Source: Deroplatys truncata (taxonomy: Eukaryota; Arthropoda; Insecta; Mantodea; Mantidae). Taken from it: a stretch of 64,000 nucleotides of DNA. Where the stretch lies: assembly GCA_030765065.1 (NCBI GenBank), contig CM060985.1, positions 9,424,001-9,488,000 on the forward strand, read 5' to 3'. A model generated the notes under the pieces. The model worked only from the letters and a program-made list of their open reading frames with translations. It was not told the DNA's origin and did not search any database. Made by a program: the position numbers and the translations under genes. Below are positions 5,571-38,823 of the stretch, in pieces. Every line of letters starts with the position of its first letter. Positions within the stretch are counted from its first letter, which is position 1.

Positions 5571-5574
5571 GGGC

Positions 5575-7016: not shown

Positions 7017-7024
7017 GCATACTG

Positions 7025-7520: not shown

Positions 7521-7599
7521 TAATAAATAACTCGTAATAACTGAACTGCATCACAACACTGTCAACTCAAAACTGCACTTCACACTGCACAACAAAGCC

Positions 7600-8060: not shown

Positions 8061-8104
8061 AGCATATGTTAGTGATGGTAAAACTTGCTCAGACACATAC
8101 TAAT

Positions 8105-10245: not shown

Positions 10246-10249
10246 AGTT

Positions 10250-12000: not shown

Positions 12001-12164
12001 CAAATTATATGAATGTAAATAACAAATAGAAATGACATAAATGTATCTAAAATTTTTGTATGATGGTCAGTATAAATAAATATTCTGTTATTACTCGTAC
12101 ATGTGTCTGGCTAACAAGTCATATAAATGATATAATTTTCTTTCTTAACATATACCTATAATAA

Positions 12165-12745
12165 GAGGAAGTATTTTATTCCATAGAAAAATTCTATATT
12201 GAGATTTTACTGGAAATACATGTTTCAAGGTCCAGAGAATCTAAAAACAAACAGCATTTTCAGAAAAAGGTCCATGTAACCACATATTTAAGATATTTGC
12301 TTGATAAATGAAACATTTATATTAAATTTTCTGGGTATAGCCCTTGAAACCATCTTCATTTGATTGAATTTGATATAACTGGTAAGAGATAAAGAAAGAA
12401 AAATATAGAGCTTTTTACAAATACCCAATTTATGTCAAACAAAGTTTCCATGCTGCAAGGTTACACTTTTCCCAAGGGAGTGTGCTTAATGTAACGGACA
12501 TGCAAAAGGAAATTTTGCAACTATTTCTTTTCTTTCCATCAGAATAGCATGTTGCTATGAATAAACATTTGAATCCTGTTTCTGCATTAACTAAGCGCTT
12601 TTTGCACAGTTTGTAGTCATAAGCTAATTGTGATTAACATAAACTGGATAGAAGAATAGCTTTTTATGTGGATACTGTAATACATAAAAGATTAGGTGAA
12701 TTTGTCATTAGTAGAGAAAGTCATGTGAATGTATCAGCAGATTTT
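12165..12745 (+). repeat. Rep-A copy, diverged
   Basis: Head 'gaggaagtattttattcca' and 'gagattttactggaaatac', middle block with 'gccatgctgcaagg'-like divergence, and tail 'gtagagaaagtcatgtgaatg' at about 12711-12731. Confidence 0.65.
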
Positions 12746-12879
12746 TTAGGTGGGAAAATACTTCAGGATGTGTTAGCAAGCATTGTTATTAATTTCTACC
12801 ATATTGATAACTAAGAAGAAAAATTGGATTTAACCCAAACATTCAAAACTAAAATTAACATGAATGCATGTTTTGAGAT

Positions 12880-13690
12880 CCCCTACATATGATGCGTTAC
12901 ATTCACATGACTTTCATTTATTAGTGGGTATACAAATTATTCTTACAAAAACTTATTTTTATATCTATTTCATTTTAATCGAGATAAACCTTTGCAGAAA
13001 TAGCTACATTACACATATTGTTATAGATACAAAGAGAACACTGAAATATTTAAGAACAGGATGCTTTACACTGCCTTAAAATTCCATACTCTTTCCATGA
13101 CATTGCAAGAGACAACAGAATGTCGACAGGACTTTTAAAAGAATTACAAAGGTACTGAACAATGCAAACCATTAATAATGGATATTTCAGAAATGGCTTA
13201 TACCACAAAAAAAGTTAATTAAAATAAATTTTGTGTTTTAAAGAGATTACTTTTTTGTGCAATACTTTTTTGTCTATCACTTAAATTTCACCAGTCATAG
13301 AAGATTATATAAAATTCCTTCCAAATGAAGAGGACTTCACAGGCTATTGTCAGAAAATTCAAGATATATATTTTATTTGTCATGTAAATATCTTTTATAT
13401 ATGATGTTTTAATCAAAATTGTTGGAGCCATTCTTAGAAAATAAAAAAATGTCCATGTAAAGGGTAGTTTGGGGTGGGGGGGGACCCTTCTTTGAAAGAT
13501 ACTGAACTTAAATACCAAGCATGGTATTTACCTGACTTTCTATTTTTGAGTAAGTATGTGCACAGACACATACACAGACCTTTTTCTAAAAATGCTTTTT
13601 TTTTGGATTTAGGAGGCTCAAAATATGTATTTCCGGTGAAATCTCGATTTTGAATTTTTGGGTGGAATGCAATACCTTCTCTACCTACAC
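12880..13690 (-). repeat. Rep-A copy, near full length, minus
   Basis: Runs from 'gttacattcacatgacttt' through 'agtgggtatacaaattattc', 'catggcttataccac'-type blocks, 'ggacttcacaggctattg', the G-rich 'ggggtggggggg' and 'ggtgaaatctcga' to 'ttgggtggaatgcaatacc'. It is one of the best examples for building a consensus. Confidence 0.8.
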
Positions 13691-13740
<50 letters not shown>

Positions 13741-13985
13741 CATAATTCAAAAGTGAGATGAATACCAGATTTCATTAAAGATTAAGAACAGAAACATTTT
13801 TGAGGTCATTCGACCCAGTCGCTGACGATGAGGACGAATGCCCTCGAAAACGTTTCCTGTTTTATGTAAGTTTAATTAGTGAAGGTGAGTGTAAAAAAGT
13901 GTGAGTCAATCTACATCACCAGATTTCATATTTATGTTAGGTGCCTTCTAAGGATACAAGGTGAAGCGTTTCAAAGAAGTGTTCC
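13690..13985 (+). repeat. Rep-A fragment with (TG)n(AG)n and hairpin element
   Basis: Starts inside the GT-rich block of Rep-A, here expanded to (TG)7 then (AG)15 (13691-13734), and continues with 'gcataattcaaaagtgag'. It is split by the hairpin element at 13776-13917 and resumes with 'atttatgttaggtgcc'. Confidence 0.65.
13776..13917 (+). mobile_element. Hairpin element with hammerhead-like core, copy 2
   Basis: A 142-bp insertion between 12-bp direct repeats ACCAGATTTCAT (13764-13775 and 13918-13929). The leader 'aagattaagaacagaaacatt' matches the leader of copy 1 at 2943. The + strand then carries GTCGCTGACGATGAGG, CCCTCGAAAACG and 'gtgagtcaatct'. Only one arm of the hairpin is kept. Confidence 0.65.
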
Positions 13986-14574
13986 TACCCAGATATCATT
14001 AGTTTAAACTACTGAAAATGTATATCTTAAATTATATAGCCGTTAATCCCTACAGATAAGCTTGCTACAGGAAATAAAATAAATGGAATTATTGTGGCTG
14101 TTCCACATGCAGTCTCATCACAGAATGAACTTCATTAGATATAAACAAAATGGAATGGCGAATGTTTAATCTCTACAACTGTCAAGGTCGTAGCTTAAGC
14201 TTATTTCTTGGCAGATAACCATTTGAACTCTGCACTGTTATCAGTGCTTTACTGTGAACACCCATTTTAACTTCTGTCCCATTATACTGTGAATGAACAT
14301 AGTATTTCAAAGCTACTGTGTATTTAAATGGCATCTCCCCAAAATAAAGCTAGAACAGCAACTAGATCCAGATGGCCTCAAAGTATGACAGTGCGTATTT
14401 AGGATGAAATGTTCAGAACAACAAGCATTGAATGAAATATAGCACAATCTTGTTGATATGTTCCTGCTAATTATGCTGTGCCATTATATATATAATGCTG
14501 GCATTTATAAATAACCCTCAACAGAAAATTCAATATAGAAATATAGATGCTCAAAATTTCTAATGTTGAACGGT
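13986..14574. other. No gene seen
   Basis: AT-rich, unclassified. No coding or repeat signal recognised. Confidence 0.4.
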
Positions 14575-14890
14575 AATTTTAGAAGCTTATTTTTGTTAAT
14601 CAAGAAAAATCTTTACAGAAATAATTGCATTACATATTTCATCATAGATACAAGAGGAATAAGGAGATTAAAGAATAATGAAATCTTTAAAAAGCAGGTC
14701 GCTATATGCTGGCTTTGAAATTCCATACTTTGTTTGCGAGAAACAAAAGAATGGTAATTTACTACACAAAAATGTGTATGATTCATTGAAAATGAAGAGG
14801 ACTTTTTACGCTATTCACAGAAAACTCAAGATATACATCTTATGAACTAAATCATTGGAGCCATTTATGAGAAAAACAAAATTGAAGAAC
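14575..14890 (-). repeat. Rep-A fragment, minus
   Basis: Contains 'aatcaagaaaaatctttac', 'cattacatatttcatcatag', 'gcaggtcgctatatgctggc' and 'gaagaggactttttacgct' in the order expected of minus-oriented Rep-A, with deletions. Confidence 0.6.
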
Positions 14891-15090
14891 ACATTTTCCA
14901 AATAAAAGGTTAGGTTAGGATTACAGGAATGTGGTAGAGAAAGAAATAATGGTTTCATGACTGCAACCATTCAAAAAAGTAAATAAATAAATCATAGATC
15001 CAGTGATCAGCTCCAAAATAACACTCCTCCAATATTGCACCAAAGCAAGCAATTTTTATAAGCAGTTACAAGTGTGTGTTTGTACGTGCA

Positions 15091-15100
<10 letters not shown>

Positions 15101-15163
<63 letters not shown>
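15101..15163 (+). repeat. (AG)n microsatellite
   Basis: About 31 AG units preceded by a short TG run (15085-15100). The TG-AG order matches the tract inside Rep-A at 13691-13734, so it probably arose from a Rep-A copy. Confidence 0.95.
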
Positions 15164-15166
<3 letters not shown>

Positions 15167-15376
15167 ACTAAAACTGTCCCTACTTCCAAGTTACAATAGA
15201 GGATGTCCACTAGAAATCTTCGACGTAATCAGATTTAATTATGCCGTTGGACTCTTGTGATAAAGCATTATCCAAAATGCCATTTTGGAAGATATAATCA
15301 TTAGCATCATAAAACTGATTCAAGCTGGTTACAATGATGATGTACATGAATTCATTTAGTGAGTAATTACACAGTA

Positions 15377-15946
15377 CAGTCCCGACCATTAAACCTTTGA
15401 ATCCGACCTGGTTGCCCCACCCCCAAAAAAATTGTAAAAAATCAAATTGTTGAGCATACACAAGTAAGCATCATTAGCGCTTCTGGCACTATACAAATGG
15501 TTGTACATTGCTGCCCGCTGGGCCATTATTAAATGTAACAGGCCACCAATCAATTATTACAAAAATGAAACAGTGTAACGTTCGGTTTAGAGTAATGTTC
15601 ATGTTTTTATTGTAGGCTACTGTGTAGTAACATTTTTATTTATGCACATACACATCCTGTTCTGTGGTGCGTTGTGAAGGCTTCAAAGAGTAAAAAAGTG
15701 TCTGTATTGATGAAAAAAAAAACTGAAAACTTTGAAGAGATTGGACAAAGGTAAAATGTTATTAAAAGTGGCACAGGAAAAACAACCACAGAGACTGGAA
15801 AAGGAACTGAAAGCTCAAGTTGCATACCAGTACAGATATAATAATAAATGTATTTTGTGAGCTTTGTTACTTTCTGCATCATTCAAACTTGCCGATCATC
15901 TGACGAGGCCAAGGTTCATTTAAGTCATGTAATCGGGACCCTATTG
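15377..15946 (+). mobile_element. pogo/Tigger-like non-autonomous element
   Basis: About 570 bp flanked by TA. The ends are imperfect inverted repeats: CAGTCCCGACC at the left, and CAATAGGGTCCCGATTACATG as the reverse complement at the right. Internally, around 15715-15830 (+), a frame reads KKLKTLKRLDKGKMLLKVAQ, resembling the CENP-B-type helix-turn-helix at the N-terminus of pogo/Tigger transposases. There is no DDE domain. Confidence 0.5.
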
Positions 15947-16294
15947 TATTAAGTATTTAGATGTAATATTATTGATAGTTGAATGTAGGGTGGGCAGTAG
16001 AGAAAAAGGGAGGAGTGGATAATCTTCTTTTGGAAGAAAGGACAAATGTGACAATGCGAAAGAACTCAAGTCAGTGGACTAATAGTAAAGTTGTTATGGT
16101 TATGCTTGTAGATGCTGCACTTTTATATTTGAATGGTTGCTTGGAATCTAATATTTTTTTGGAACTGGAACAGTCCGAACTGTTACTTTCTTCTACAAAA
16201 TATTGTTACAAGAGCTTATTCTTCTTCTTCTACCTTTTGTTAATGCAGATAAACTTTGATTACTCATTTTGTTGTAGGTGTAAGAATACAGTAG
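15947..16294. other. No gene supported
   Basis: The + strand open frame 15979-16299 has no recognisable domain, and its end runs into Rep-A sequence. Confidence 0.4.
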
Positions 16295-16862
16295 GTTAAT
16301 TTTTTCAAAGCAGGTCGCTACGAAACTCCATGCTCTGTGCATGAACATGGGGAAAAAAGAATAGCAGATGAGAAAATGTTAAGGCCAAAAAACTTTATTC
16401 GACATAAATTGTGCACTTTAACAAGATCTATATTTTTTATGTAGCAAAATTTTCTCTATCGCTTATGGTTTACCAATTATACAAGTCATTCAGAATAAAG
16501 AGGACCTCAGAAGCTATTTATAAAAAATTCAAAACTAAAGAACGTTGTTAGAAATCAAGTATAACAAAACTTTTTTCACCTAAACTGTAGATTGGGGTGG
16601 GGGTTTTTCTTGAAATTCTTTGTGTCGAATCCTTGGAACACCATCCTTAAACACCAATCTGGTATTTTAAGTTTTTCATTTTTCAGTTCCGCTGTTCACA
16701 GACACAGACACGGGTGGGTATCTAAAAATGCTTTTCTTCTTCTTCTCTTTTGATTTGGGGAAACTCAAACGTGTATTTCTGGTGAAATCTCGGTATTGAA
16801 TTTAATTTTTGGGTGGAATGCAATTCCTCCTGTACTTACTAAAGTAAGTAGTAGAGATGGTA
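16295..16862 (-). repeat. Rep-A copy, minus
   Basis: From 'gcaggtcgctacgaaactcc' through 'gaggacctcagaagctattt', 'attggggtgggggtttttc' and 'ggtgaaatctcggtattg' to 'tttttgggtggaatgcaatt' and 'agtagagatgg'. Confidence 0.75.
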
Positions 16863-17044
16863 GTATGCATTTTTCCACACCCCTAATTGCCAACCTTACT
16901 CCAAGTTGATGCTTTTGTTAAGGCCACAATTAAGTAATGAGTTGTGTACTCAAGTATCTTTATCACAGCCATTTTCCATAAGTGCTGGGCATCTTATTAC
17001 TTGTATCAATGTGGTTATAAAAATACATTCTTCTTCCATTCTAA

Positions 17045-17170
17045 AAGCATACTTATTTTCTCTGTAGTGGAATTACTGCATTCCATCCAAACACTCAGTA
17101 TGAACATTTTACCAGATATGCATGTTTAAAGGTCTGCTGAATACAAAATATTATTTTAAAAAGATCTAAT
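17045..17170 (+). repeat. Rep-A head fragment
   Basis: 'actgcattccatccaaacac', 'catttt accagatatgcatg' type head block, cut off where an oppositely oriented copy begins at about 17171. Confidence 0.55.
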
Positions 17171-17536
17171 GTGTACATTCTCTACCCTCTATCGCTTATC
17201 AGTGGGTGTATAAATTATTCTTACGAAAGTTTATTTTCCTATCTACTCCATTTTAGTCAACATAAACCTTTACAGAAACAGCTACATTACACATTTTGTT
17301 ATAGATACAAAGAGAACAGCGATAGTCAAATGTTTAACAACTGAACGCTATATGCTGGCCTTAAAATTACAATCTCTTTCCACAGCTGACAAGAAACAAT
17401 TGAAAAATGTTCCATATAAAGGGTAGTTTGAGGTGGAGGAATTTTCTTGAAAATCTTCATGTCACGTCTTTGGAAGATACTGAACTTAAATACCAAGTTT
17501 GTATTTATCCAACTTTTTGTTTTTGTACTGTTCACA

Positions 17537-17588
<52 letters not shown>

Positions 17589-17612
17589 TGTATGTGGTAG
17601 AGAAAGTAAAAA
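17171..17612 (-). repeat. Rep-A copy, minus, with (AC)n
   Basis: Tail ('cattctctaccctctatcgc'), terminal half, then a jump to 'gggtagtttgaggtggagg' and the head. The internal GT block is expanded to about 24 AC units on the + strand (17538-17586). Confidence 0.75.
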
Positions 17613-17689
17613 AGTTCATATGTGTATGTACATGAACAGCTTAACTGAAAAGCAAAGTTCAACATTTTTCAAGGTTGCTAAACACACAT

Positions 17690-18645
17690 TTTCATTGTCC
17701 CCCCCCCTCAAAAAAAAAAGGCTCTTAACCATTTTGATTTAAATATGGCATGTTTAAGATATTCGCATGACAAATAAAATGTATATCTTGAATTTACTAG
17801 GAATAGCGTGTCAAGTCCCCTTGTTTCGGAAATAATTCTGTATAATGTTTTTTGTACTATGCATAGTAAACAGGGGTAGTATTATATTCCACCAAAAAAT
17901 TCAATGTTGAGATTTCACTGGAAATATATGTTTTGTGATCCCTTGGATCCTCCCCCCCCCAAAAAAAAACACTTTTAGTTCCATTTTGTGTGTCTGTGAA
18001 TAGCATAACTCAACGAAAAGTCTGATAAATACCAAACTTGGTATTTAGGTTCAGTACCTTTCAAAGATGCAACACAGATTTGAAAATCCCCCCACCCTAA
18101 TTACCCTTTACATAGAACATATTTTGAAATTTTTTATTTTTTAAACTAAGAACTTTGATTAAAATACTATATATTAAAGATATTTACATGATAAATAAAA
18201 TGTAGATCTTGAATTTTCGGGGAATAGCCTGTGAAGTTCTCTTCATTTGGAAGGAATTTTGCATAATTTTGTAACGCTGGTAAACGTTAAACAATAGACA
18301 AATATGTAGTACACAAAATATGAGATTTCTTTAAAACACACAATTTATTTCAAATAGCTTTTTTTCAAAGTCCTGTCAACATTCAGTTGTTTCTCACTAT
18401 GCCATGGAAACAGTATGGAATTTTAAGGCCAGCATATAGCGTCCAATTGTTAAAAAATTTTACTATCACCGTTCTCTTTGTTTCTATAACGAAATGAGTA
18501 ATGTAGCTATTTCTACAAAGCTTGATTGTATTAAAATGAAGTAGAAAATTAAGCTTTAGTAAGAATTATTTGTATACCCACTAATAAACGATAGAGGGTA
18601 GAGAAAGTCATGGGAATGTACCACATCAGATCTTTTTATAACTGG
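17690..18645 (+). repeat. Rep-A copies, plus
   Basis: One partial copy (17700-17860) runs into a nearly complete one. The head is at 17885 ('ccaccaaaaaattcaatg'), followed by 'gcatatagcgtccaattg', then the tail 'gagggtagagaaagtcatgg' at about 18595. Confidence 0.75.
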
Positions 18646-19074
18646 TAACAGAAATATGTAGATGTATTTAAGATGTCAATGTTGATGAGGCATTATCTCA
18701 GAAACCATTTAAAATGTCAGACTGAAATGCTTACAGATGTAGATGCATGCCTTCAGTGATATACTTTTATACAATAAGTTTGCTTAAAACGTATGTGCAA
18801 TTTTTATTAAACAACCAACCATATTATTGATTAAAGTAGATCCACAAGAACACTTTATCATTCTAAAATTTAACTCCGCCACCTTCAATAGTTTCTAAGA
18901 AAGCAGGTCATATTAAACAAGAAAATGTTACTCACAAGAGTTGTTGAAGACCAACTTGCATATATTTGCACAGAAAGAAAGCATGTGGCATGCCATACTT
19001 ACCAGTAGTCCAATTTGTAGAGCAAACTTCCCCCTGTGAAGCGATGCAGAGTTCGCAGTACAAAATGGCACATG
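18646..19074. other. No gene seen
   Basis: Unclassified. The - strand frame 18932-19294 runs into the adjacent Rep-A head and has no recognisable domain. Confidence 0.4.
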
Positions 19075-20535
19075 CAGCACTATTTTTAATTTCTCTACTA
19101 CGTATAGTTAAGTATTGTGTTCTACCCAAAAATTTAATGTGAGATTTCACCAGAAATGCACAGAGGCAGACAAAAGTATTCGTCTTAACTTTAAGAAATT
19201 CTACCAGCCAAATTATTGGAGATAAAATTCCCTCTTTTAATATACAGAAAAAATAAATGGTACTACATTTTGGCGCATTTTTTTCATGTTTCAAAATCTT
19301 TCACTTTATCAGTTTTATAATGTTTTGAAAATTGCATCGCTTTTTCAACCTTTTCATTGTGACATTTTTTTATGTATGCTATCTGATATTTTCATCGATG
19401 TACGGATTTAAACTGGCAGGGAAATAAATTTGTGAAGCCGTAAAATTTGAGGTGTTAATGAGGAAGTTCAGGAAAAACGTTAAAAATATCTGACTTTGAC
19501 ATTTTATTCTCCCTACAAATGAAAACCTATGTTCACCACAAAATCAGATATTGCACAAAATATATTGCTCTGTTTAATGAAAATAATTCTTTAAATACCA
19601 CATACAAAAATGTTGAAAAATTGGTATATTTTTCAAACAAATGTAAAACTAAATAATATGCAGGATATTAATAGCTGCCAAAACAAGTAAACTGTAACAC
19701 TATTTGTTCTTTCTATTAAAAATTAGAATTTTATTTCCATTAATTTGGCTACTAGAATTCTTAATACTGTATACAAATACTTTTTTCTGCCTCTGTATGT
19801 TTTGAGGATCCCTGAACCAAAAGCAACTATTTTTACAAAAAGGTCTCTCTCTCTGTGAACAGTGTAACTCAAAACCAAAAAGTTGGTTAAATATGAAACT
19901 TTGAATTTAACTTTAGTATCTTCCAGGAATACGACAGAGTTTTTTTAAAAAAAAATCCCCCCCCCACACTAAACCACCATTTACATGGGGATTTTTTCGA
20001 ACATTTTGATTTTTCTCAAAAATAGCTCTTAACAATTTTCAGTAAAAACCCATATGTTTAAGATATTTCGATGGCAATTTTCTAGGAATAGCCTCTAAAA
20101 ACTTCTACATTCTGAATGACTTTTGCATAATTGTCAAACCATCAGAGATAGACAAAATCCTACTGCACAAAAATTATAGAGCTCATTAAAGCACCAATTT
20201 ATGACAAATACTTTTTTTAATGAAGTTACATTTCTGAGATATTCCTTGTTATTGGTTTAAACTGTCAAATACTTATAGTTTTCTGAAATGCAAAGTCATT
20301 ATTATTTCCTCCTTGTAATAATGCAAAGAGAATGGAATTTTAGAGCCACACATAGTGACCAGCTCTTAAAAGATTTTACTATAATTTAAGCCTACTGTGC
20401 TCCCTTATTCCAATTGCACATATAAGGAAATATGTAATAAAGCCATTTCTATAAATGTTAACCGTATTAGCTTTTGTAAGAACAGTTTGTAGAAGACTGA
20501 GTAGAGAGTCATGTGAGTGCAACACATTAGCTTTT
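19075..20535 (+). repeat. Rep-A copy split by a TIR element
   Basis: Head at 19085-19160 ('tctactacgtatag', 'gagatttcaccagaaatgca'), a 635-bp insertion, then continuation from 19798 ('tgttttgaggatccctgaac') to the tail at about 20500 ('agtagagagtcatgtgagtg'). Confidence 0.75.
19161..19795. mobile_element. Non-autonomous TIR transposon (MITE-like)
   Basis: Ends are inverted repeats of about 55 bp: CAGAGGCAGACAAAAGTATT at the left, and CAGAGGCAGAAAAAAGTATT as the reverse complement at the right. Similarity continues to GCCAAATTA. Flanked by CA and TA, consistent with a decayed TA duplication. No transposase. The end sequence suggests the Tc1/mariner superfamily. Confidence 0.7.
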
Positions 20536-20539
20536 TGAA

Positions 20540-20770
20540 AATGTATTTAAAATGTGGCCCCAGCCATTTCTGAGATATTGCCACTATTGGTTTCATTTTT
20601 CATTAATTCTGTCATTTTATGAAGTGCTGTCATTTGTTTCTCATGATGCCCTACAAAAAGTATGAAGACCAGAGACATATATTTTAAACATCTCCTGTAT
20701 CCTTGTACATACAACCGAATATGTAATGAAACTTGTTTCTGCAAACATTTATCTCAATTAACATGAAGTA
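20540..20770 (+). repeat. Rep-A tail half, variant
   Basis: 'ccagccatttctgagatatt', 'gtttctcatgatgccc' and 'tttatctcaattaacatgaa', cut at a TA by a mariner element. A short continuation follows at 22004. Confidence 0.6.
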
Positions 20771-22001
20771 TGATGGCTGTCCCAGAAGTACCCAACCTAA
20801 CAAAGAAAACAAACATTTTGGCAAAAAACATGTTTATTTCTCTACATAGTCTCCTTTCAGCTCGATACACTTTTCCTAGTGATGTTCAATACCTTTGATA
20901 CCCTATTTATAGTGAGAACCGTTGAGTTCTGCAAAATAGCCATCAACTGCAAACTCCACCTCTTCATTTTTGGCAAATCTTTTACCAACTTTGGAAACAG
21001 AAAATAATCAGAGGAGGCTAAGTCTGGCGAATAGGGTGCATGAGGAAGCAATTCAAACTTTAAGTCATTGATTTTGGCTATGGCAATAATGGATGTGTGA
21101 ACTGGTGCATTGTCTTGATGAAACAGAACTTTCTTTTTCGCTAAATGCAGCTGGTTTTGCTTGATTTCATCATTCAAAGGCTGCAATAAGTTTGCATACT
21201 ACTCGCCAATGATTGATTTTCCTTTTTGAAGATAATTAATGAAAATTATCCCACGCGCATCCCAAAAAACTGACGCCATGACCTTGCCTGCAGATGGAAC
21301 AGTCTTCGCCTTCTTTGGAGCCGATTCTCCCCTTTCAATTCACTGTTTTGACTGTTCCTTCATCTCAGGTGTGAAATGGTTATGAATCGACACAAAAACT
21401 CTGCTTTATTGCAGCGAAACATCCTCACAATACTGCTTTTGTTCCATTGAGTAAATTTGGTACCCATCTTGCGCATAGCTTTCTCATGTCTAAATTTTCA
21501 GTTAGTGTGCAATGTACAGCACTTTTTGAAATGTCTACGATGTCTGCTAGCTTGCGCACTTTCAGTCAACGGTCATCTAATACAATTTTTTTGTGGATTT
21601 TCTTCACAATTTCTGGCGTGGTCACCTCATTTGGTTGACCACTGCGATTTTCGTCTTGGCAGCTCGCACGACCTCACTTAAACTTCTCCAACCAATATTT
21701 TACTGTTGTAAACATAGGAGCAGACTCCCCCAGAGTAGAATCTAGTTCAGCTTTAATATTAGTTGGACTAAGACCTTTCAAACGAAAGTATTGTATCACA
21801 TAACGATGGCCAGGTTTATCCATGTTTACAAATTCACTGAGAGAATTCAGTATTAATGGCTGCTAAAAACAATTACTAAACAATGTAGCATTGTCAAACT
21901 TCAAACTTAAGCTTTATAAGGGTGGTACTTTCTACCATAGTCATTTGTTTGAAACAACCGCTATATATACGTCAGGTCAGGTACTTCTGGGACTGCCCTC
22001 G
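20771..22001 (-). mobile_element. mariner element, degenerate transposase
   Basis: Complete in length: terminal inverted repeats of about 28 bp share CTGTCCCAGAAGTAC / CAGTCCCAGAAGTAC, and the element is flanked by TA. The transposase starts at 21823 on the - strand (MDKPGHRYVIQYFRLKGLSP) and ends at 20857. It has the HTH region (VKYWLEKFK), FHQDNAPVHTS around 21120 and LLPHAPYSPDLASSDYFLFP near 21010-21060, the D,D34D-type signature. Several in-frame stops mean it makes no full protein. Inserted in Rep-A. Confidence 0.85.
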
Positions 22002-22189
22002 TAGATATGATAGTGGCTGGAGAAAGTTATTGAAGATAGCACAAGTTTTCCTCTTCCTACCCAGTTGTAACAAATTCTTTAATATTTTATCATTAAGACC
22101 AAAAACATAAATGTTGCTCATATTTTACTGTTCCAGTTGGTTACTTCTTTTACATCCTGTTATATGCTTTTTTCCTTCATTTGCTTAGA

Positions 22190-22500
22190 GTAGGTAGAGG
22201 AAATCTTGTAATTCACCCCAAAATTTATCAGGATTATTTTTGAAAAAGTCTGGTGTGTGTGTTTGTGACAGAGGCAGAAAAACTAAAATTTGGGTATCAA
22301 ATTTCATACTTGCATCCAACACCTTTCAGGGATGTAATATAATACTTTGATCAATTAATTCCCTGCACTTCAAATTATTCCTTAACAGGAAAAATCTTCA
22401 TTTTTGTTTTCTATTTTCTCAAAAATGGTTTTAATGATTTTGATGAATCAGACCACATGTAACAGTCATTTATTTCAGAAAATATGGCATTAACTATATA
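22190..22500 (+). repeat. Rep-A head fragment, diverged
   Basis: 'gtaggtagaggaaatcttg' head, 'ctaaaatttgggtatcaaat', 'aacaccttt', 'ttgatgaatcagacc'. The order agrees with plus Rep-A, but divergence is high. Confidence 0.55.
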
Positions 22501-22590
22501 AGTCAGGCATATGTAAACTTTCACTTGATTTTGTGAGTTAGTCATAACTAGAAGTGGCAATTCCAAATGGGAGTGAGGGTCAAATAGGCC

Positions 22591-23232
22591 AGCATTCCCT
22601 CAATCTTGGCTATATGTGCTTTACACAGGTAAATGCATGCCTGTCTAATATGGGAAAATGCCAGAAAAAATATGCTTGTATATACACTGGGAGTCCTGTG
22701 TAATAACTCCAGCAGCTTTTGCATGTGCTCCTGTTGACCAAGCGCAATATAAATAAATGCTATTTACCAATAGTAGGGTGCCAGTGCATGATTTTGTATG
22801 TGTATGCACCAAATGAGTGATTGAAGAACATATTCCAAGCAGTTCTTGGAGGAGTTTATTGCCATGTTTAGGGAACTTGTCTTTGGAACAGGCTAGCAAG
22901 CAAGAAGTCTTATGAACAGCTTGTAAACAAAATGAAGGAAATAGACTCAGAGGCTAATGGGAGATGATGCAAAACAAGATTAACTCACTTTGGTATCCAA
23001 CATTTTTATTTATTTGGTATGAGATGAGTGTAGCTTTCATTAACCTCTTCCTTAGTATGCACACTCCAGCCAAATCCAAAAAACATATCCTCTTCCATCT
23101 TATGCAGTGAACACACTGCAGAGACACTACTGAAAAGACTGAGGTTTCTTGGCATTTTGCATGCATGTGTAATAGGAAAAGAGTGCCAATATGCCTTTTA
23201 TCATGTATATGCCAAGATTGAGGGAATGCTGT
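22591..23232. mobile_element. Unclassified element with ~20-bp terminal inverted repeats
   Basis: CAGCATTCCCTCAATCTTGG at 22591-22610 is repeated in inverted form at 23212-23231, with looser similarity further in (including 'gcatgc' blocks). The interior of about 600 bp has no coding frame. No clear target duplication was seen. It could be a DNA transposon remnant or a long hairpin. Confidence 0.5.
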
Positions 23233-23354
23233 TATATCTAATACCCACTTTAGATAGAGCTCTTCAAAACAAACAACTATTGATTCTGCTCAATATTAAG
23301 TGAAATAAATAAGCTGAACTTTTATACCAATTTTTGTATTTTTGTGACATTTTG

Positions 23355-24190
23355 TTACTTTCTCTACTACGTATAGTAAGTAAGGGAAGTATTGTATTCC
23401 ACCCAAAAATTCGATACCGAGATTTCACCGGAAATACATGTTTTGAGACCCCCTGAATCCAAAAAAAAAAGCATTTTTGGAAACATGTCCATGTGTGTGT
23501 GTGTCTGTGAACAGCATAACTCAGAAATGAACAGTCTGATAAACACCAAACTTGATATTTAAGTTCAGTATCTTCCAGAGATGCGACACGAAGGTTTTTA
23601 AGAAAATCCCCTCACCCAGAATACCCTTTACATGGAACATTTTTCGAAAATTTTAATTTTCTCAAAAATGCCTCTAACGATTTTGATTAAAATATCATAT
23701 GTTTAAGATATTTTCATGACAAATGAAATGTATATCTCGAATTTTCTGGGAATGTCTCCAAAAGTATTCTTCATTGTGAACGACTTTTGCATAATTGGTA
23801 AACCATAAGAGATAGACAAAATTTTACTACACAAAAAATGTAGATCGCATTAAAATACACAATTTATGTCATATACATTTTTTTGTTGAGTGAACCATTT
23901 TCTAGATATTGCTTGTTATTCCCTTAAATTTTCCAATACTTACACTTTTTCTCAAATTCGTTATTCAATTTGTTTTGTCCTGGTAATGCAAAGAGAATGG
24001 AATACTCCACATAGCAACCAGCTCTTAAAATATTTGACTATAGCTTAAAGCTTACCAATTCCCCCTTGCATCTACAAGAAAATTAGCAATAAGATTAACA
24101 TCTCGATCAACATGAAGCATATGGAGAATAAGTGTTTGTAAAAATAGTTTGTACAAGAGTAGAGAAAGTCATGTGAGTGTAACACATCAG
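23355..24190 (+). repeat. Rep-A copy, near full length
   Basis: Very typical copy: 'actttctctactacgtatag', 'ccacccaaaaattcgatacc', 'gagatttcaccggaaatac', 'gtctgtgaacagcataac', 'cccctcacccagaataccct', 'gacaaatgaaatgtatatc', 'gtagagaaagtcatgtgagtg'. No coding frame on either strand longer than about 70 codons. Confidence 0.85.
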
Positions 24191-24539
24191 AGTTTTTTTG
24201 AGTTATGCTGTCCACAGACACATGTTTTTCTAAAACACTTATCAACAGCTTATTTCTGGTTAAATCGTCATGTGAAATATAATAGTTCCTGCACCTACCA
24301 TAGATACAAGCTAAAAAATTACCAAACGTTCACACTTTTCTCCCCCTCCTTAAATTAATAAATAAATGCTGTAGTGGCACGTTTGGTCACTTGAAAGAGG
24401 AAAGATTGTAACTAGGTACAGATTTCTTCTGGGAATGGCACTCTGTAATTATGATTTTTACACTGCACTGTTGTCGCCAAAGTGGTACTGTGCATTACAC
24501 AAGTATGTCTATACCTCTAGTTTAGTGACCCACGCCATA

Positions 24540-29697: not shown

Positions 29698-31671
29698 TTA
29701 CAGCTTGCCACACTTTGTGATGAGAATGGTCTTTGTGGGCTTCCCTGTCTGGTCCCCATAAGTGGATATCTTCTCCACAAGGTCAAGCCCCTCAACAACA
29801 TGGCCAAAAATCCCGGTAAAGCCTCTCATTTCCTGCAGTATGATGCGAAACTGCGAACCAACCATTCCCAAATTATCGTGGCGCTTCTGCGTGCGCCTCA
29901 TTCCCACAGCCCCCCTGACAGCAGGGAACTTGGTGTCATCTGGCATGAAGTAACCGTCTTCATATATGGACCTGCCCCCTCGCCCATTGTTGAGCTCGAA
30001 GTCCCCCGTGATGACAGACTCCCCCTCCCAGCATTGGAACACCGAGCAGCCCTTGTAGCTGACGCCCATTTCTCCGGTGCACAGCACGCCGAAGTTTTTG
30101 GCCATTTTGGGAGCAGCGTCGGGACGTACCTCGATGACGATTCGACCGTGTGGAGAGCCATTTACGTCAATATTAAAATAGTAGAGAGGGTACTGGTTTG
30201 ACGGAGTGCGCACATTGAGAGTCATAACCTGCTGCGGTGGAGACTGCACCTGTACAGCAACAACGCTCTGCTCCTGACCAAATGGAGGTTGTGGGGTGGC
30301 TTGTGCATGATGCACAGATGGAGGCAGAGCTGGCGGTGGCTTATTGCCAACAGATGTTGGAGCTGCAGCGGCCACAACAATGTGTTGAGGTGGCGGGGGA
30401 TGTGCAGGAGTGACAAGATGATGGGGCATGGGATGCACTGGAGGGTGATGGTACTCCACTGTGCCATTCTGCTGCAAATGGTGATGCTGTTTTGTCAGCA
30501 CATGACGAGAATACAGCTGCGACATGCAGTAGTTGGCAAGGAACAGGATGGGATTTTGGGCTGCAGCCGCATGATGGGGCAGGCGCCCTGGACCGCCTCC
30601 CTGTGGTGTGGGTGGCTCACCTGAATGGATGTTGGCAAGTGCCTGTTTCAAAAGTGCAAAGTCAAAAACCACCCCAGAGTTGCCAATAAGATCATCTAGC
30701 TGACATTGGAGATACATCTCCTGGTACTTGCTCTGCAGTCGTTGTTTCTCTATGGACAGGTTCGTATACAGGACATGGGCATCGCCAGGACAATCCACTC
30801 CTGCCAATCCTGCTCGTGCCTTGCTGAGTGTCTCGCGCGCCTCTGTTACCTCCGGAACATGGCTCCATCCATTCTGAAGATCTGTCTCAACATGAGTCTT
30901 CAGCGTGACACATGCCTCCAAGACCTTCAACAAGAAGTCGCGCTGCTGCATCGCCAGACGTTGGATCTCTGACAGCATCTTTCCCATTGCTACCAACTCC
31001 ATCTGAACCTTTAAAAACATTCAAAGACAAATTTAATATCAAGAAGGAAAAGATTCTTCTACTGACCACAGTGATTTTATATTCTTACCTCAGAAACGAG
31101 TTGTTCTTTGGCCTCACCCTGAGACTTGACTTGGTGGCCCGGATGATCTTGCTGCGTAGCACAGGCTCGACAGATAGCAAGACAGCAAGTATGGCACCAC
31201 AACGCCAATGGCATTCCATGCGTGTGGCAGTTTTCACTTTGCAACATCTATATAAGAAAATAAGTAACAATTTTAATATTGAATAAATGCAAGCTTTTTT
31301 TTTTGCAGGAGGGGATGTTAATGAATTCAGCAGATATTATGTTTACACACCTTTCGCTCTTTGTCCGGTGGTTTGTTTCCACCACTGGCGCCAGGTCCAA
31401 TCTTAAGAGCTGTGAAGTTCTTGGCAAGTGTCAAGACGGCACCATATGTTTGCAAGGTGTCAGCTCCTTGTTCACCAAGCTCAGTTCGTTTCCAGCAGTG
31501 AACACAGTAGAGTTCTCGGCCCTTCATTAATGCAGTTTGGATGCACTTTAGGCAGAAGTAGTGTTTGCAACTTAGGAACTTCGGACAAAGATCTGAGTCA
31601 TTGAACTTCTGTTTGCAGAAGCTACAGAGGGTCAATTCCTCAAGTTCTGGTAGTATCCCTGGTTCCATCAT
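29698..31671 (-). CDS. RING + B-box + coiled-coil + cyclophilin-like protein (TRIM-Cyp-like architecture)
   Basis: Three coding exons, 31671-31351, 31247-31089 and 31002-29698, all joined in phase 0 with GT-AG introns (donors AAG|GTGTGT and GAG|GTAAGA). They give 594 residues with no disruption. Residues 16-59 form a C3HC4 RING (C16, C19, C35, H37, C40, C43, C56, C59), predicted to recruit an E2. Residues 114-145 form a B-box type 2 with the exact spacing C-x2-H-x7-C-x2-C-x4-C-x2-C-x5-H-x2-H. Residues 161-290 are helical and coiled-coil-like. About 300-425 is a His/Pro/Gln-rich linker. Residues 429-594 are a cyclophilin fold, including TGDFELNNGRGGRSIYEDGY and NLGMVGSQF. By alignment from memory with human cyclophilin A, the residues at R55, F60, Q63, F113, W121 and H126 are all replaced, so peptidyl-prolyl isomerase activity and cyclosporin binding are unlikely and the domain is probably a binding module. 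The start at 31671 is chosen because a splice acceptor (TTCTTTTCAG) lies directly before ATGATG; an upstream non-coding exon is implied. Probable E3 ubiquitin ligase; substrate unknown. Flies may have a related RING-cyclophilin gene, but I cannot confirm it here. Confidence 0.88.
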
Positions 31672-32340
31672 CTGAAAAGAACACCCAACTCATATGAACA
31701 CAAACTTATTTTGCTGCATTTCATTATCAGTGTTTAGTAATTTATCCTTCCTTGATTCTTTGTGCAAAAGGTTAATGTGAACGCCACTTCATTATCTGCT
31801 TACATGCACGCATTTATCTACACCTATTGTGTAATACCAATGACAGCGAGATAGAGGAATATTCAATATCTTTGAAACTACAATTAAGCGTCCATATTAA
31901 AATGTTATTAGATAATTTCAATGCAACACGCTCGATAATGACATTAACATCTTCGCCCTCCACAAACCCAATTCCACTGTGCAAGTTCCGTTTTAACACG
32001 GCGGATAATGCAGCCATTAGATTATCTGTTATCACTAAACTGAATCATTATTACCGAAAACAGGTTGTAACAAACATAAATAAACAATTACAGCTCAATA
32101 ATGATATATAAACCAATTGTCCTTACCGTGTTTATCGCGTTGTTGCCACAGCGAAAAAAACAAAAGTCGGTACGATGAAAATACGTAATGTAGCGAACGA
32201 GCTACAACGACGAAAACGCACGTTCCGGTGCGTTTATGTGACTAAAGGAATTGTCGTTTAACGAGGAAGCGGCATTTATATTTTACATAACGAAAACTTG
32301 CCGTCGCCGGCTTCTAAACGACCCTAACTTACAACATTAT
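31672..32340 (-). promoter_or_regulatory. 5' region and probable promoter of the RING-cyclophilin gene
   Basis: An intron ends at 31672, just upstream of the ATG. Sequence from about 32120 to 32470 is much richer in CpG than the surroundings ('acgacgaaaacgcacg', 'ccgtcgccgg'), as in TATA-less housekeeping promoters. A - strand open frame at 31814-32035 (SGIGFVEGEDVNVIIERVAL) is unrecognised and may be intronic. Transcription start not determined. Confidence 0.4.
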
Positions 32341-32561: not shown

Positions 32562-35500
32562 GAGAAAGATAGATATGGAAATGAAGTATCCAGATTAGCT
32601 CGACCGTTACCTGTGGAATATCTGCTTGTGGATGTACCGGTTTCAACACCATTGAATCCTCTTTTCACATTTTTTGCGGATGCAAATATACGACCTTTCA
32701 CGGTGGAAAACAGGTAATAATTTCCCATATACCGCCAAAGATTATGGTTTTATAATTTCTATGTCTTGTGCCCACAAGAATATTGGCAGATTGTGCTGAT
32801 ATAATAAATCGTTAGGAAATAACAAAGAAGCTAGCTTTTGTATCATCTTATTTCTTCTCCTTCGCTTGAAGCTCTACGTATTAACGTTGTTTGTTGTTTA
32901 TAAATCGTCAGGAAATGGAAAAGAAGCTAGCTTTTGTATCATTTTATTTCCTCGCCTTCGCTTGAAGCTGTGCTTGTTAACGTTGTTTGTTGTTCTGCAT
33001 CTAACGACGCATTTAGCGTTCTGAATTTTCATAGTTATTTAATTAGCTCAAGCGCTAAACGCCTTTTCTTTATTTATTTTTGTTAAACAGTCTAAAATTT
33101 TCAATGAGTCTTTATATCATGCATTTTAATAAAATGGACATATTAATATTAGTTAATTTCATGTAAAGCTAATGCCGGGATTACGATGAACTTAATGTAA
33201 CATGAGGTAACTTAACGCGACGTAATATGAAAGTCTAACACATTGTATTAAATGTAGCTATTTAGGGTCAACTTAACGCGATGTAACGTAAGAATTTGAC
33301 AATGTGAAACGTTTCCTTCCCGTTACGTTAAGTTTGACGTCACCAGTAATTATAATCAATCCGCCTGAAGCAATGGTATCAAGTTACGCGCTTTCACGTT
33401 AAGTGAAGTTTATCGTAATCCCGGCATAAAAAGCTTGGTATATGTTCATTTGTATCAGCGATTCTACAAGCACATACATCATTGATTAGTTGAATTTTCT
33501 TTGAGATAAAGGAGATTGTTTTATATTAATTTTGAACTACTTTCCTGAGATGTTTTACAGCAATGCCAAATCCAGAAATTAACCATCAGTTGAGGGTACC
33601 TGGTAGCTACTTGAGGACAAAGGGATGATAATTTATTTTTAATAATTTCAAGGTATTCTTCATTGTCTTGATAAAAAAAAGAAAGAGCAAATTCCTAAAC
33701 ATCTGATCTATGTGTACAAACAACTAAGTCAACCTTTCCCATTGCAGAGGTCTTCCATTATTATACACAGATAATATAAAGTAGATATACCTATTAATGC
33801 AGGTAGAGAATGACTTTTATTTAAAGAAACAGAGTGGTGAAAAATTGAAGGGCAATTAAATGTTAAGATAACTCTTAAAAATTAAGACTAGCAAATTGAA
33901 ATTGGATAACAATGTTTTGAAGTATTCTCCAACCCAATCTTCATAAAGAAACTATATTGTCTCATCACAAACAAAACTCTCTAATTCAAAGTGTTTTTCA
34001 CTGTAAAAAACCTTTGTCAGTGATGAAGTTTCCTGAGACAAGTTTATTACAGTTTTTTTTAATGATTCTGGGCCTGTTTCAGGATGGTGGATGGACATAT
34101 TCAGGATTTCAGTGCATTGAGTGCCTACATGCAACAGTTCACACCAGATAAGTTTCTTCAGGCAGTTTCAGACTTCCATTTTCTGCTTTACATTTCAACA
34201 ATGGACATGTTACCAATGAAGGTTAGTATTAATGGCTCACATTAGACGAACATAAACCAAACTGAAAGTTGTAATAAGTTTAGTTTCTTGTGAATACTGG
34301 ATACACCGGGACTCAGCACTTACCCTTCGGCCATTTTTGGCTTCTCCTCTGATGAAGAAGGCCCTCACACCATTGTTTCATCTCCCGCCAGGTGACTGCA
34401 ACCACATTATTGTCTCCATGTTTGAAATCTTTCGCACGAATGCTTCATTCTTGGAGCTTTCATTGTTCGAGACAGCAGTGAAATGAACCACTTCAAGGTG
34501 GCATTTCTTGCATTTTAAAATAAATAAATAAACTGCATTCCTTTCACGTGCAAACTATTGTTCCATTGCCTTAGAAAAATTTCTTTCTTTGTTGTGCAAC
34601 TTTTCCTTTCCTTGCCTCATTCCTTTTAAATAAATAAATAAATTACAATGTGAAATTCTTTAGAAAAATTGAGTCAGAGTTGAAACACTTAATATCACTT
34701 ACGTGTTTTTCATCTTGACCGTTTCAAGAGCTATTGCTCCCATCCTCAGAAGTGGACTACTGGTTCCTTGTGGTGTTTTTCAGTGTGTGGGGACATCTGG
34801 TGGTGGAGTGATGAACTTCCATTGTGGGTTTGGTGGCAGTAATTTAAAATTCATTACACAGTGTTTAGCTTTTCCCAAATATCTAGCTCTGCTGTGTATT
34901 TTGCCAGTTTTAGGAGTATTATATTTGGTGTGATGTTGTGATTTGTCATCCAAAAGTTATGTGCAACTGCAGATTTATCCATCTGCTTGTATTTGATGTG
35001 TGTCATATGCTCTTTTAATCTGGCCTCTAAATTTCTTTTTGTTTTACCTATGCAGATTTGGTCACATTCTGAGCAATTAGTTTGATAGAGTCCTGCTTTT
35101 TTGTTCTGAGGTACAGGGTTGGGCAGATAAAATTGGCCCATCTCATTTTATATGATTTGGAAAGAAATTAAGTTGGCAATCCTTTCTTCAGCATGTTTAA
35201 TTTCATTGTTGTTGTTGCTTCTTACAAATGATTGACAATGGTTTATAAATTGTTGTAAAGAGTTGTTTTGTACAGTAAATAAGCATGACTAATTCAATAG
35301 CAGAGCGAATATTAATTGTAGAGGAGTACATACAGACCAGGTCACAACAATTATTCAAAGACAAATATCTGCTTCGTCCAGTACCAGCAAAAAGTAGCAT
35401 TTAAGGTTTGGTGCAACAATGGCGTGCGACTGGACCCATTACAAATACAACAAGGAACAGAACGCCTTCTGTCCGCACACCTCAGTAATGAAATGATGAC

Positions 35501-38500
35501 TAGGAGTCCTCGAAAGTCTACCACGAGATTGGCTCAACAGGTTCATGTGAGTAGTACAGCTTGCAGGCGTATATTAAAGTCTTTGAAATTATAACCCTAC
35601 CGAGTGACAGCTGTACAACAACTGAAGGAGCCCGATAAATGTGTAAATTTCTGCTACTGGTTACAGATGGTCATATGGACCTGCTGATGTTTATCATGAC
35701 TGACGAGGCTTGGTTGCATCTACCGGGATATGTAAACTCCCAGAACAGTAGGTATTGGGCAACAGGAAACCCTAACCTGTGGTTTGAGCAACCTCTACAT
35801 GACCAAAAGATTGGTGTGCTATGACTGCGAAACACATTATGGGTCCAATGTTCTTTGTTACCACAGTCAACACACATGTTTACTTGACCCAACTAACAGG
35901 GTCAACTGCTTCTTTCAACAAGATGAGGCAACATGTCACACATCTGAGAGGTCTCTTACCTGTTCACTGAAGAGAGGACTGCAATCACCAGATTTGTCGA
36001 CATGTGACTTTTATTTATGGGGGTAGTAAAAGTGGGAGCAGAATCCCCATTCCATTGATGAACTGAAGGATAAGATCAGGAATTGCATGTGCACTGTAAC
36101 CCATGAGGAATTAATGCATGTTTTTATGAACCTGTCTAGATGCAGGAGAGGGCACTTCCAACGTTTATTATCAACGTTTATTCCATTTGAAGTTTGTTTC
36201 AAGTCCATGTGATAACACTGCCCAACCCTGTATTTGGTCCTTTTGATTTGTTGCAGAGTAATTTCTCTAGACTGAATCTGTTTTGTGGAGCTAGAAGATG
36301 ATGTGAGTCATTGGGTGGAAAGTGAACTTTTTGAAAATCATTTTGCTTTTTTGTTGGGTGAGCTTTATGCCATCCTTAATGTGTTTCTGTTTCTTGTTTT
36401 TGTCAATAATTTGTTTGATAAAGCCATTGTTTATAGCTGTGTTAACTATATGTTCATATTCCCTACCTCTTAATGGTATATAAACCAATCTATGGATCAA
36501 ACTGTGTGGGACTGAGTTGAAACTATTGTTTTTTATGCAGTTTTCAGAATGTGTAGGCTTCCTGTAGATACCAAAATTGATCTTGTTCTGGTTTCTAATT
36601 ATTTTTAAATCTAGGAATGGTAATATGCCTTCATTTTCAGTTTCCATGATGAATTGTATAGCTTTGTTCTGCAAATTGAGTTATTTGAGGGCATCCTGGA
36701 TGAGTTTGTTGGGTACTATTGCAAGTTGACATATTTATGCCAAACCTTGTAAATTACTCATGAAGAACTCAGCGAGGAAAGGTGATAGTGGGTTGCCGAT
36801 GGCTAAATTAGAAGTCTGCTGATAGTTTGTTAAAGTGAAACTGTTGTGAGTGATTCAAAAGGTCGTCTATTTCTTCTTGTGTTATATTGTCTTGGGTAAG
36901 CCATTTTTTCAGTTGTCATCTATTGGGATACTTCAGAAAAGGGCAGCGACGTCAAAGGATACTAGTTTACCTTCCGGTTTTAGTTTTATATGTTCTATTT
37001 TTGTAATTAATTCTTGAGAGTTCTGATGCTTAAGCTGCTGTATTTAGGTAGTGTAGTGAATTTCTGTATAAGCCATTTTCCCAAATTATATGTGGCTGAA
37101 TCAATATTGTTTATTATGGGTCTTATTTTGTTGCCGTCTGGTTTATGTATTTTCTGGAGTGTGGGCTGATTTTGTTTGATTACAGATTTTTCTTTATCTG
37201 TTAAGGTTTTAACTTTATTCACGGAGAGATTGAAGGATTTTAGTGGATCTGTTTTGATTTCTGTGTATATCATCTTGGAGTAGGTTTTCCATAATGGCAA
37301 TGTAATCTTTTTTGTCTGCTTTGGTATAAATTACCGGTTTGGATTTGAGTGACTTTATGATATTCTTGTCTGGGAAACTTGTAGCTATCCACCACCACAC
37401 TCAAACACACACCAGTGGGCCACTTCCAAGGATGGGAATAATATCTCTTGAAACCACTCAAGATGAAAAACATGTAAGTGATGCTAAGTGTTTCAACACT
37501 GACTCAATTTAGAATAAACAATTTTAAATTCACATCACTGTTGCTGGCTTATCCATATATTATAGAAATTACAATGTATTTCTTTAAGTGCAATCTTTCC
37601 TTTTCTTCACCCATTCCTTTAAAATAAATCCTAAGCCCCCTCCTCCGTCATCTTCTCTGTGACCACGTGGCCTACTCACCCAGCCCTCATACTTGCTTTT
37701 CCCAGAGTGTCACGAGACAGCAATCGTAACAGTGGAGGGGAAATTGAAAGTAGTAGCAAAGTGCTGAGTTCCAGTATTGGAGTTTGTTTTATTAGCAGAA
37801 GGAACAACAAATACATTCATGTCATTGTATCCTGTATATATGAAGAACACAGTCCAAGTTCAGCAGTAGTTGAGTTTTGTATGCATCATAACTAACTGTG
37901 AATACTTGCAGGATTACATGGGGCCGCTGATAGAAGCAGTAAAGACACAGAACGTGGCTCAAGTTCAGCAGTGGTTGAGTTTTGTATGCATCATAACTAA
38001 CTGTGAATACTTGCAGGATTACATGGGGCCGCTGATAGAAGCAGTAAAGACACAGAACACAGTCCAAGTTCAGCAGTGGTTGAGTTTTGTATGGATCATA
38101 ACTAACTGTGAATACTTGCAGGATTACATGGGGCCGCTGATAGAAGCAGTAAAGACACAGAACACAGTCCAAGTTCAGCAGTAGTTGAGTTTTGTATGCA
38201 TCATAACTAACTGTGAATACTTGCAGGATTACATGGGGCCGCTGATAGAAGCAGTAAAGACACAGAACGTGGCTCAAGTTCAGCAGTGGTTGAGTTTTGT
38301 ATGGATCATAACTAACTGTGAATACTTGCAGGATTACATGGGGCCGCTGATAGAAGCAGTAAAGACACAGAACACAGTCCAAGTTCAGCAGTGGTTGAGT
38401 TTTGTATGGATCATAACTAACTGTGAATACTTGCAGGATTACATGGGGCCGCTGATAGAAGCAGTAAAGACACAGAACACAGTCCAAGTTCAGCAGTGGT

Positions 38501-38823
38501 TGAGTTTTGTATGGATCATAACTAACTGTGAATACTTGCAGGATTACATGGGGCCACTGATAGAAGCAGTAAAGACACAGAACGTGGCTCAAGCTCAGCA
38601 GTGGTCAAGTTCCGAGCACTGGGCTACAGTGGAGCAGCTGATAGCAGCAAGCCTGTCATCCCCACCACAGTCTCGCCCCCAGAGCGTGTCATTTGCAGAG
38701 GCTGGTGGTGGGGCAGTCCCAGCCGATAGCACCAACGCGGCCCAGAACTGGACTTGTCCACATTGCACCTACCTCAACTCGCCGGAACTTGTCAACTGTG
38801 AAATGTGCAATCTTCCACGGTAA
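32562..38823 (+). CDS. Npl4: NPL4 (NPLOC4), C-terminal exons only
   Basis: Last three coding exons of the p97/VCP-UFD1 cofactor NPL4, which delivers ubiquitinated proteins to the unfoldase in the cytosol and nucleus. Exon 32562-32713 reads YGNEVSRLARPLPVEYLLVD and ends FTVENR, matching FGNEITQLARPLPVEYLIID...FPIENR of human NPLOC4 as I recall it. Exon 34083-34221 reads FLQAVSDFHFLLYISTMDML (human SDFHLLLFLVTNEVM). The final exon from 38542 reads DYMGPLIEAVKTQN, SSSEHWATVEQL (human SEQWATIEQL) and ends in an NZF zinc finger, WTCPHCTYLNSPELVNCEMC, followed by NLPR and the stop at 38821-38823. The TY and M ubiquitin-contact positions of the NZF are kept. Exon phases fit (AG|G split codon, then phase 0). 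Upstream exons for the remaining roughly 450 residues were not found. The last intron, 34222-38541, holds a Penelope-like element and the tandem acceptor array; acceptors 4-6 (exon starts 38227, 38332, 38437) would also keep frame and add 35 residues each. Confidence 0.9.
32804..32995 (+). repeat. Tandem duplication, 96-bp period, in NPL4 intron
   Basis: Two adjacent copies starting 'ataaatcg' at 32804 and 32900. Shared blocks are 'aagaagctagcttttgtatc', 'ccttcgcttgaagct' and 'ttaacgttgtttgttgtt'. A few substitutions separate them. No coding role apparent. Confidence 0.9.
33173..33426. mobile_element. MITE with 20-bp TIRs and TAA duplication
   Basis: 254 bp in the NPL4 intron. TIRs are TGCCGGGATTACGATGAACT at the left and TGCCGGGATTACGATAAACT as the reverse complement at the right, flanked by TAA on both sides (33170-33172, 33427-33429). 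The three-base TAA duplication suggests the PIF/Harbinger superfamily. The interior is rich in 'taacttaacgcgacgta'-type motifs. Non-coding. Confidence 0.75.
33430..34082 (+). other. Remainder of NPL4 intron
   Basis: AT-rich intron sequence ending in the acceptor CTGTTTCAG at 34082. No conserved element recognised. Confidence 0.5.
34222..34668 (+). other. Start of the last NPL4 intron
   Basis: Begins with donor GTTAGT at 34222. An open + strand stretch at about 34310-34495 (LRPFLASPLMKKALTPLFH and further) and a run of AAATAAATAAATAAA near 34515-34530 could be a fossil repeat or an alternative terminal exon. I recognise no family and do not call a gene. Confidence 0.35.
34711..34755 (-). ncRNA. 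Hammerhead-ribozyme-like motif in Penelope end
   Basis: On the - strand: CTT, then CTGAGGA, a GAGC-AATA-GCTC hairpin, then GAAACG followed by GTC and AAG, which can pair with the initial CTT as stem I. Penelope-like elements are known to carry hammerhead ribozymes in their terminal repeats. One extra base follows CTGAGGA compared with the minimal consensus, so activity is uncertain. A weaker relative is at 37418-37465 (+). Confidence 0.45.
35112..36232 (+). mobile_element. IS630-like DNA transposon nested in the Penelope element
   Basis: Exact 15-bp terminal inverted repeats TACAGGGTTGGGCAG (35112-35126; complement at 36218-36232), total 1121 bp. The + strand contains a DUF4817-type N-terminus (IAERILIVEEYIQT, WRATG), MTDEAWLHLPGYVNSQNSRY around 35700-35755, FFQQDEATCHTS near 35913 and SPDLSTCDFYLWG near 35990-36025. 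These are the DDE motifs of this superfamily. Several stops and frame changes show it is dead, but its clean ends suggest it is younger than its host element. Confidence 0.8.
37512..37842 (+). other. Intron sequence between Penelope element and acceptor array
   Basis: Short, no repeat recognised. The + strand frame 37659-37895 runs into the array and has no domain. Confidence 0.4.
37843..38605 (+). repeat. Tandem array: NPL4 splice acceptor plus exon start, 105-bp units
   Basis: Seven full units and one partial. Each unit is 42 nt of intron end, with branch-point-like TAACTAAC and acceptor CTTGCAG, followed by 63 nt of exon coding DYMGPLIEAVKTQNVAQVQQ and Trp. Exon-start positions are 37912, 38017, 38122, 38227, 38332, 38437 and 38542, exactly 105 apart. 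Unit length and both parts are multiples of three, so the intron part is translatable as LSFVCIITNCEYLQ. Units differ at a few bases: GTGGCTC or ACAGTCC, TGG or TAG, ATGC or ATGG. TAG at 38182-38184 closes the frame from acceptors 1-3; acceptors 4-7 read on to the zinc finger. Confidence 0.95.

Follow-up and report, generated by a model that had tools for sequence, protein, structure and literature searches.

A 105-bp minisatellite across the last intron-exon boundary of NPL4 in Deroplatys truncata and the choice among its seven acceptors

In the stretch of the Deroplatys truncata genome analysed here (64,000 nucleotides, referred to as the window), the last intron-exon boundary of NPL4 lies in a tandem array that carries the same acceptor seven times. 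This raises the question of which of these acceptors the gene uses and what follows for its protein. Seven acceptors of the same sequence, spaced in frame within one natural gene, amount to a natural experiment on 3' splice-site choice in which mainly position differs. The NPL4 gene is essential, and because NPL4 is a conserved cofactor of p97, a wrong choice of acceptor should carry a visible cost. The array also shows that a minisatellite can straddle the edge of an exon and make new protein repeats available while the reading frame stays intact. From the sequence, we consider it fairly probable that a 105-bp minisatellite across the last boundary of NPL4 leads to mixed use of its acceptors, and that it is probably a tolerated accident.

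The host gene and the array

The gene had been named NPL4 in an initial annotation of this DNA, and this identity holds. The NPL4 domain PF05021 gave six matches, all six above the cut-off, in order on the + strand of one contig (C11), at profile positions 1-32, 31-80, 76-129, 125-183, 177-230 and 217-275 of 309. The terminal exon matched NPL4 chains (E 1.3e-14), and its zinc finger matched the NPL4 NZF 1nj3 (E 5.9e-07); the Pfam RanBP finger in the same exon scored 24.3 bits, under the cut-off of 27. The last two PF05021 matches are the two upstream exons listed in Table 1, and the earlier ones lie upstream of the window; the gene including the terminal exon spans ~63 kb. The zf-NPL4 domain (PF05020) is a feature near the N terminus of NPL4. 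Three of the six PF05021 matches contain stops. In the two within the window these fall beyond the exon boundaries, and the stop in the third follows just past a GT donor, indicating that the stops do not interrupt the exons. When the terminal exon was searched against the genome, the best candidates comprised nine matches, seven of them in the array (the exon and six repeats) and two elsewhere, both weak (33% and 37% identity); there was no second copy of the terminal exon among these best candidates. Apart from the array, the NPL4 gene looks intact.

Other elements were noticed around the NPL4 exons. The ~37-kb intron from C11:9419569 to window position 32562 contains, in antisense, a frame with a cyclophilin domain and an adjoining RING-like frame (29698-31020 and 31327-31689, both on the - strand), the latter under the Pfam cut-offs. 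These pieces apparently form a nested gene; we infer that they belong to a single gene and that no NPL4 exon lies between. Pfam scans of 4311-14302 and 14301-24292 of the window on the + strand found no NPL4 exon. The fragments at 20857-21198 (-) and 35322-36026 (+) resemble mariner/Tc-type transposases; Pfam gave no match for 20857-21198 (-) and only weak HTH matches for 35322-35594 (+). A second small tandem repeat (32804-32994; 96 bp x 2, 88% alike) was seen in the intron after the exon 32562-32713.

Table 1 Features at the 3' end of NPL4 (positions in the window)
Feature	Position	Strand	Evidence
NPL4 exon (EKDRYGNEV...FTVEN), phase 2 end (AG/gtaata)	32562..32713	+	PF05021 positions 177-230; sequence
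NPL4 penultimate exon (MVDGHIQDF...MDMLPMK), end ATGAAG/gttagt, phase 0	34083..34221	+	Pfam NPL4; sequence
Last NPL4 intron when spliced to the farthest acceptor, with the array at the 3' end	34222..38541	+	
105-bp tandem array, 7.3 copies, across the last intron-exon boundary	37844..38605	+	TRF and sequence
First acceptor signal, TAACTAAC..TTGCAG, exon start 37912; product would end at 38182	37889..37911	+	
Second acceptor signal, exon start 38017; product would end at 38182	37994..38016	+	
Third acceptor signal, exon start 38122; product would end at 38182	38099..38121	+	
In-frame TAG dividing the three truncating from the four full-length acceptors	38182..38184	+	
Fourth acceptor signal, exon start 38227; +3 repeats, no stop before the normal one	38204..38226	+	
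Fifth acceptor signal, exon start 38332; +2 repeats	38309..38331	+	
Sixth acceptor signal, exon start 38437; +1 repeat	38414..38436	+	
Seventh, canonical acceptor signal, exon start 38542; +0 repeats	38519..38541	+	
Canonical last coding exon, with the final part of the C-terminal domain, the NZF zinc finger and the stop	38542..38823	+	NPL4 chains, 1nj3

TRF described the array as a repeat of period 105 with 7.3 copies, 94% matches, 0% indels and a score of 1370, and the acceptor TTGCAG/GATTACATG occurs in it seven times, once per 105 bp. The 105-bp array with seven acceptors at the last exon of NPL4, as initially annotated, was thus recovered by TRF and by the motif positions; the description as seven units stands for the acceptors and not for whole units, as the leftmost copy is partial and unit homology begins at 37844, within the exon-derived part. 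The annotated division of each unit into 42 nt of intron and 63 nt of exon is right only roughly, because exon- and intron-derived sequences are alike near the join. The 42-nt tail (TTGAG...TTGCAG) was found seven times in the window, with a single variable C/G site, and 0 times in 100 shuffles of the window. Units 2, 5 and 6 are identical to one another, and the repeat-only peptide is LSFVWIITNCEYLQDYMGPLIEAVK. Used as a query against the 4.29-Gb assembly, in a search skipping very common words, the whole array was found in one place. The reverse strand over the array holds a single open frame of 260 codons (37822-38604, -), probably a by-product of the repeat.

Splice signals and predicted products

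Splice sites were scored with animal matrices not derived from D. truncata. All seven array acceptors score 4.17 and rank 339 of the 3668 AG sites in the window, whereas ranks of 162 and 72 were obtained for the acceptors of the two NPL4 exons further upstream. The array acceptors are thus weak, pyrimidine-poor and equal in local strength, and their use may accordingly be low or enhancer-dependent. Each is preceded by the branch-point-like motif TAACTAAC with no AG in between, and the seven sites are identical from this motif through the exon start. A strong acceptor-like site was noticed at 37706, 206 bp upstream of the first array acceptor, with a score (11.2) above those of all three NPL4 acceptors scored.

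On the donor side, the donor of the penultimate exon at 34222 ranks 86 of the 3601 GT sites in the window, and the GT sites inside the array are weak (best rank 672 of 3601). A donor-like GCA/GTAAAG, ranking 902 of 3601, follows 27 nt (9 codons) past each of the seven acceptors, for example at 37939 after 37912. When three of the 105-nt units were folded, none was stabler than its shuffles (z 1.65, 1.19, 0.15), so these folds lend no support to a pairing mechanism.

Which acceptor is the canonical one can be judged by homology. The product of joining 34221 to 38542 aligns to the NPL4 chains of the solved structures 11sy and 11ve with 104.4 bits and without a gap at the junction, which makes 38542 the canonical acceptor by homology; the product with three extra repeats aligns to NPL4 chains in two separate stretches, with 85.6 bits. 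The proposed placement of the array at the last intron and a phase-0 junction is confirmed; the penultimate exon ends in phase 0 at 34221.

One unit equals 35 codons, in frame. Four of the seven acceptors can be read through to the normal stop at 38821-38823 (198 residues from 38227, 163 from 38332, 128 from 38437 and 93 from 38542), in agreement with the earlier claim that zero to three additions of 35 residues are available in frame. The companion claim that the units are mostly stop-free barely covers the other three acceptors, which would lead to the TAG at 38182-38184 after 90 (37912), 55 (38017) or 20 residues (38122), in each case without the zinc finger. Structure prediction of the +3 segment (38227-38820), made without an alignment, gave a mean pLDDT of 48.8 with the repeat part mostly helix, too poor to interpret. 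Among random 42-nt stretches of the last NPL4 intron, 47% are stop-free in a given frame, and the chance of a period that is a multiple of three is 1/3; since the two would be expected jointly in ~16% of cases, preservation of the frame alone is weak evidence of selection.

These signals and frames are consistent with the following course of events. Through unequal exchange, the acceptor would have been multiplied together with its branch-point-like motif and the initial ~63 nt of the terminal exon, and the NPL4 pre-mRNA would now present seven acceptors that are locally of equal strength and are distinguished mainly by where they lie. Enough complete NPL4 must then come from the acceptor at 38542 or, failing that, from one or more of the last four. 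Part of the transcripts would gain one, two or three 35-residue repeats where the exons are joined, and part, spliced to one of the first three acceptors, would end at the TAG and lose the last part of the C-terminal domain together with the zinc finger. The array would probably be a tolerated accident and not an evolved switch. How far each acceptor is used, and with what consequence for function, we infer from the signals and frames described above. The ladder of alternative 3' splice sites in the initial annotation thus holds as to its anatomy, and its use in cells is a prediction.

Growth of the array and competing readings

The array resembles itself most at a shift of 315 bp (98.9% identity over 440 nt), compared with 94.9% at 105, 95.1% at 210, 94.0% at 420 and 93.5% at 525 bp, and only base 37989 distinguishes the trimer that begins at 37844 from the one at 38159. 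This 315-bp higher-order pattern suggests that the array grew by unequal exchange, one or three units at a time, and the expansion seems to be recent.

The array possibly began from an older short duplication that had given two similar stretches. Between the left-hand tail (37844-37879) and the canonical exon (38579-38614), 25 of 36 positions are identical and the remaining 11 are transitions, with no transversions; extending the comparison to 40 positions gives 14 transitions and a single transversion. Such an all-transition pattern is odd for simple neutral decay. Without gaps, the likeness of tail and exon reaches 24 of 34 nt, against a maximum of 21 among 300 resampled intron sequences; when gaps were allowed, the local alignment of intron tail and exon scored 44.9 and was not significant, as 2000 shuffles reached up to 64.1.

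Could the array be an error of assembly, the true locus having one or a few units? The identity of units 2, 5 and 6 would fit this, but the array (762 bp) is short compared with long reads, from which the 200,255,399-bp contig appears to have been built, and the single-base difference between the trimers makes an exactly copied loop unlikely; we give this idea hardly any credence. An array that is real may still be silent. Exon definition or distal enhancers could restrict splicing to 38542, leaving the protein unchanged and the upstream copies as intron, and we regard this as a possible, if rather unlikely, outcome. It would suit the weak, pyrimidine-poor acceptor, the in-frame TAGs at 38182 and in the tail that precedes 37912, which show the upstream part to be free of coding constraint, and the fit of the canonical join alone, gapless at the junction, to the solved NPL4 chains. 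Human ABCA7 also speaks for it: retention of one extra unit was 2 +/- 1% there, on one reading of the excerpted text (PMC5954066). However, the seven sites are the same from motif to exon start, so that nothing local favours 38542, and the exonic stretch that follows the canonical acceptor has been copied too.

The opposite extreme is a working length ladder, in which the relative use of the seven equal sites would fix graded proportions of NPL4 forms. If this were true, some forms would be truncated and lack the zinc finger, while others would be normal or contain one, two or three extra repeats where the C-terminal domain is joined, and a germline change in copy number would retune the mixture and hence the handling of ubiquitin chains by p97. 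We think such a ladder very improbable. Alternatively, an intron may be in the process of being gained: the cryptic GCA/GTAAAG donors would pair with the next acceptor and excise 78-nt introns containing the TAG, leaving 9-codon in-frame mini-exons, as in potato RdRp. The regular position of the donor-like site after every acceptor and the potato precedent, with its recruited GTAAG donor (PMC4974935, in the part of the text available), speak for this; the site itself scores poorly beside the donor at 34222 (ranks given above), and we hold the idea to be very doubtful.

Mixed use, the explanation that we prefer, has to face a rule from closely spaced sites. In minigene tests described in excerpts of PMC2875228, the proximal AG was used almost exclusively after the gap to the distal AG had been widened. 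Applied between units, this proximal-AG rule would make the truncating first acceptor dominant, which is hard to square with an essential NPL4. Wobble acceptors lie only a few nucleotides apart, and the rule may therefore not extend to units that each have their own branch-point-like motif.

Comparison with known systems

The array had been called unusual, and this is fair, but splice-site-bearing repeats and boundary duplications have already been described (PMC5954066, PMC5941971, PMC4974935, each as represented by part of its text). In a search of titles and abstract openings of the open-licence literature, the matches listed included neither an in-frame acceptor array of the NPL4 sort nor a paper on NPL4 splice forms.

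Two established classes do not accommodate the array. Mutually exclusive tandem exons of the Dscam type, in which every copy forms a complete exon and has a donor to itself, were rejected because none of the GT sites in the array makes a strong donor. NAGNAG or wobble acceptors are similar in that neighbouring acceptors compete, but they lie a few nucleotides apart (PMC2875228, excerpts), and the spacing of 105 bp in NPL4, each acceptor with its own branch-point-like motif, rules out this class.

Tandem duplication across an intron-exon boundary, the hallmark of one route of intron gain, is also what the NPL4 array presents. In potato RdRp, such a duplication created a new intron; as in NPL4, the 3' side of the intron and the 5' side of the next exon were copied, with branch site, acceptor and enhancers (PMC4974935, partial text). 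The potato case differs in having one duplication and a recruited donor, whereas NPL4 has seven copies and no good donor. One intron gain of tandem-duplication type has been named in Drosophila, in Bap170, in the portion of PMC2809761 available.

The array belongs with tandem repeats whose unit contains a splice site of the gene; its last copy carries the acceptor that is canonical by homology. In FAM20C, a VNTR likewise lies across the junction of an intron and an exon, and an effect on alternative splicing has been ascribed to it (PMC5941971, in excerpt). The unit of the human ABCA7 intron-18 VNTR includes the exon-18 donor, and retention of one unit was detected in RNA (PMC5954066, in excerpt). 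Both ABCA7 and NPL4 thus have a splice site within the unit of a tandem array. In ABCA7, however, a donor is copied in a 25-bp intronic unit, out of frame and with polymorphic copy number (about 12-427; same source), whereas the NPL4 array repeats an acceptor and coding exon in frame, seven times in one assembly. What is distinctive in the NPL4 array is this sevenfold copying of an acceptor together with in-frame coding sequence.
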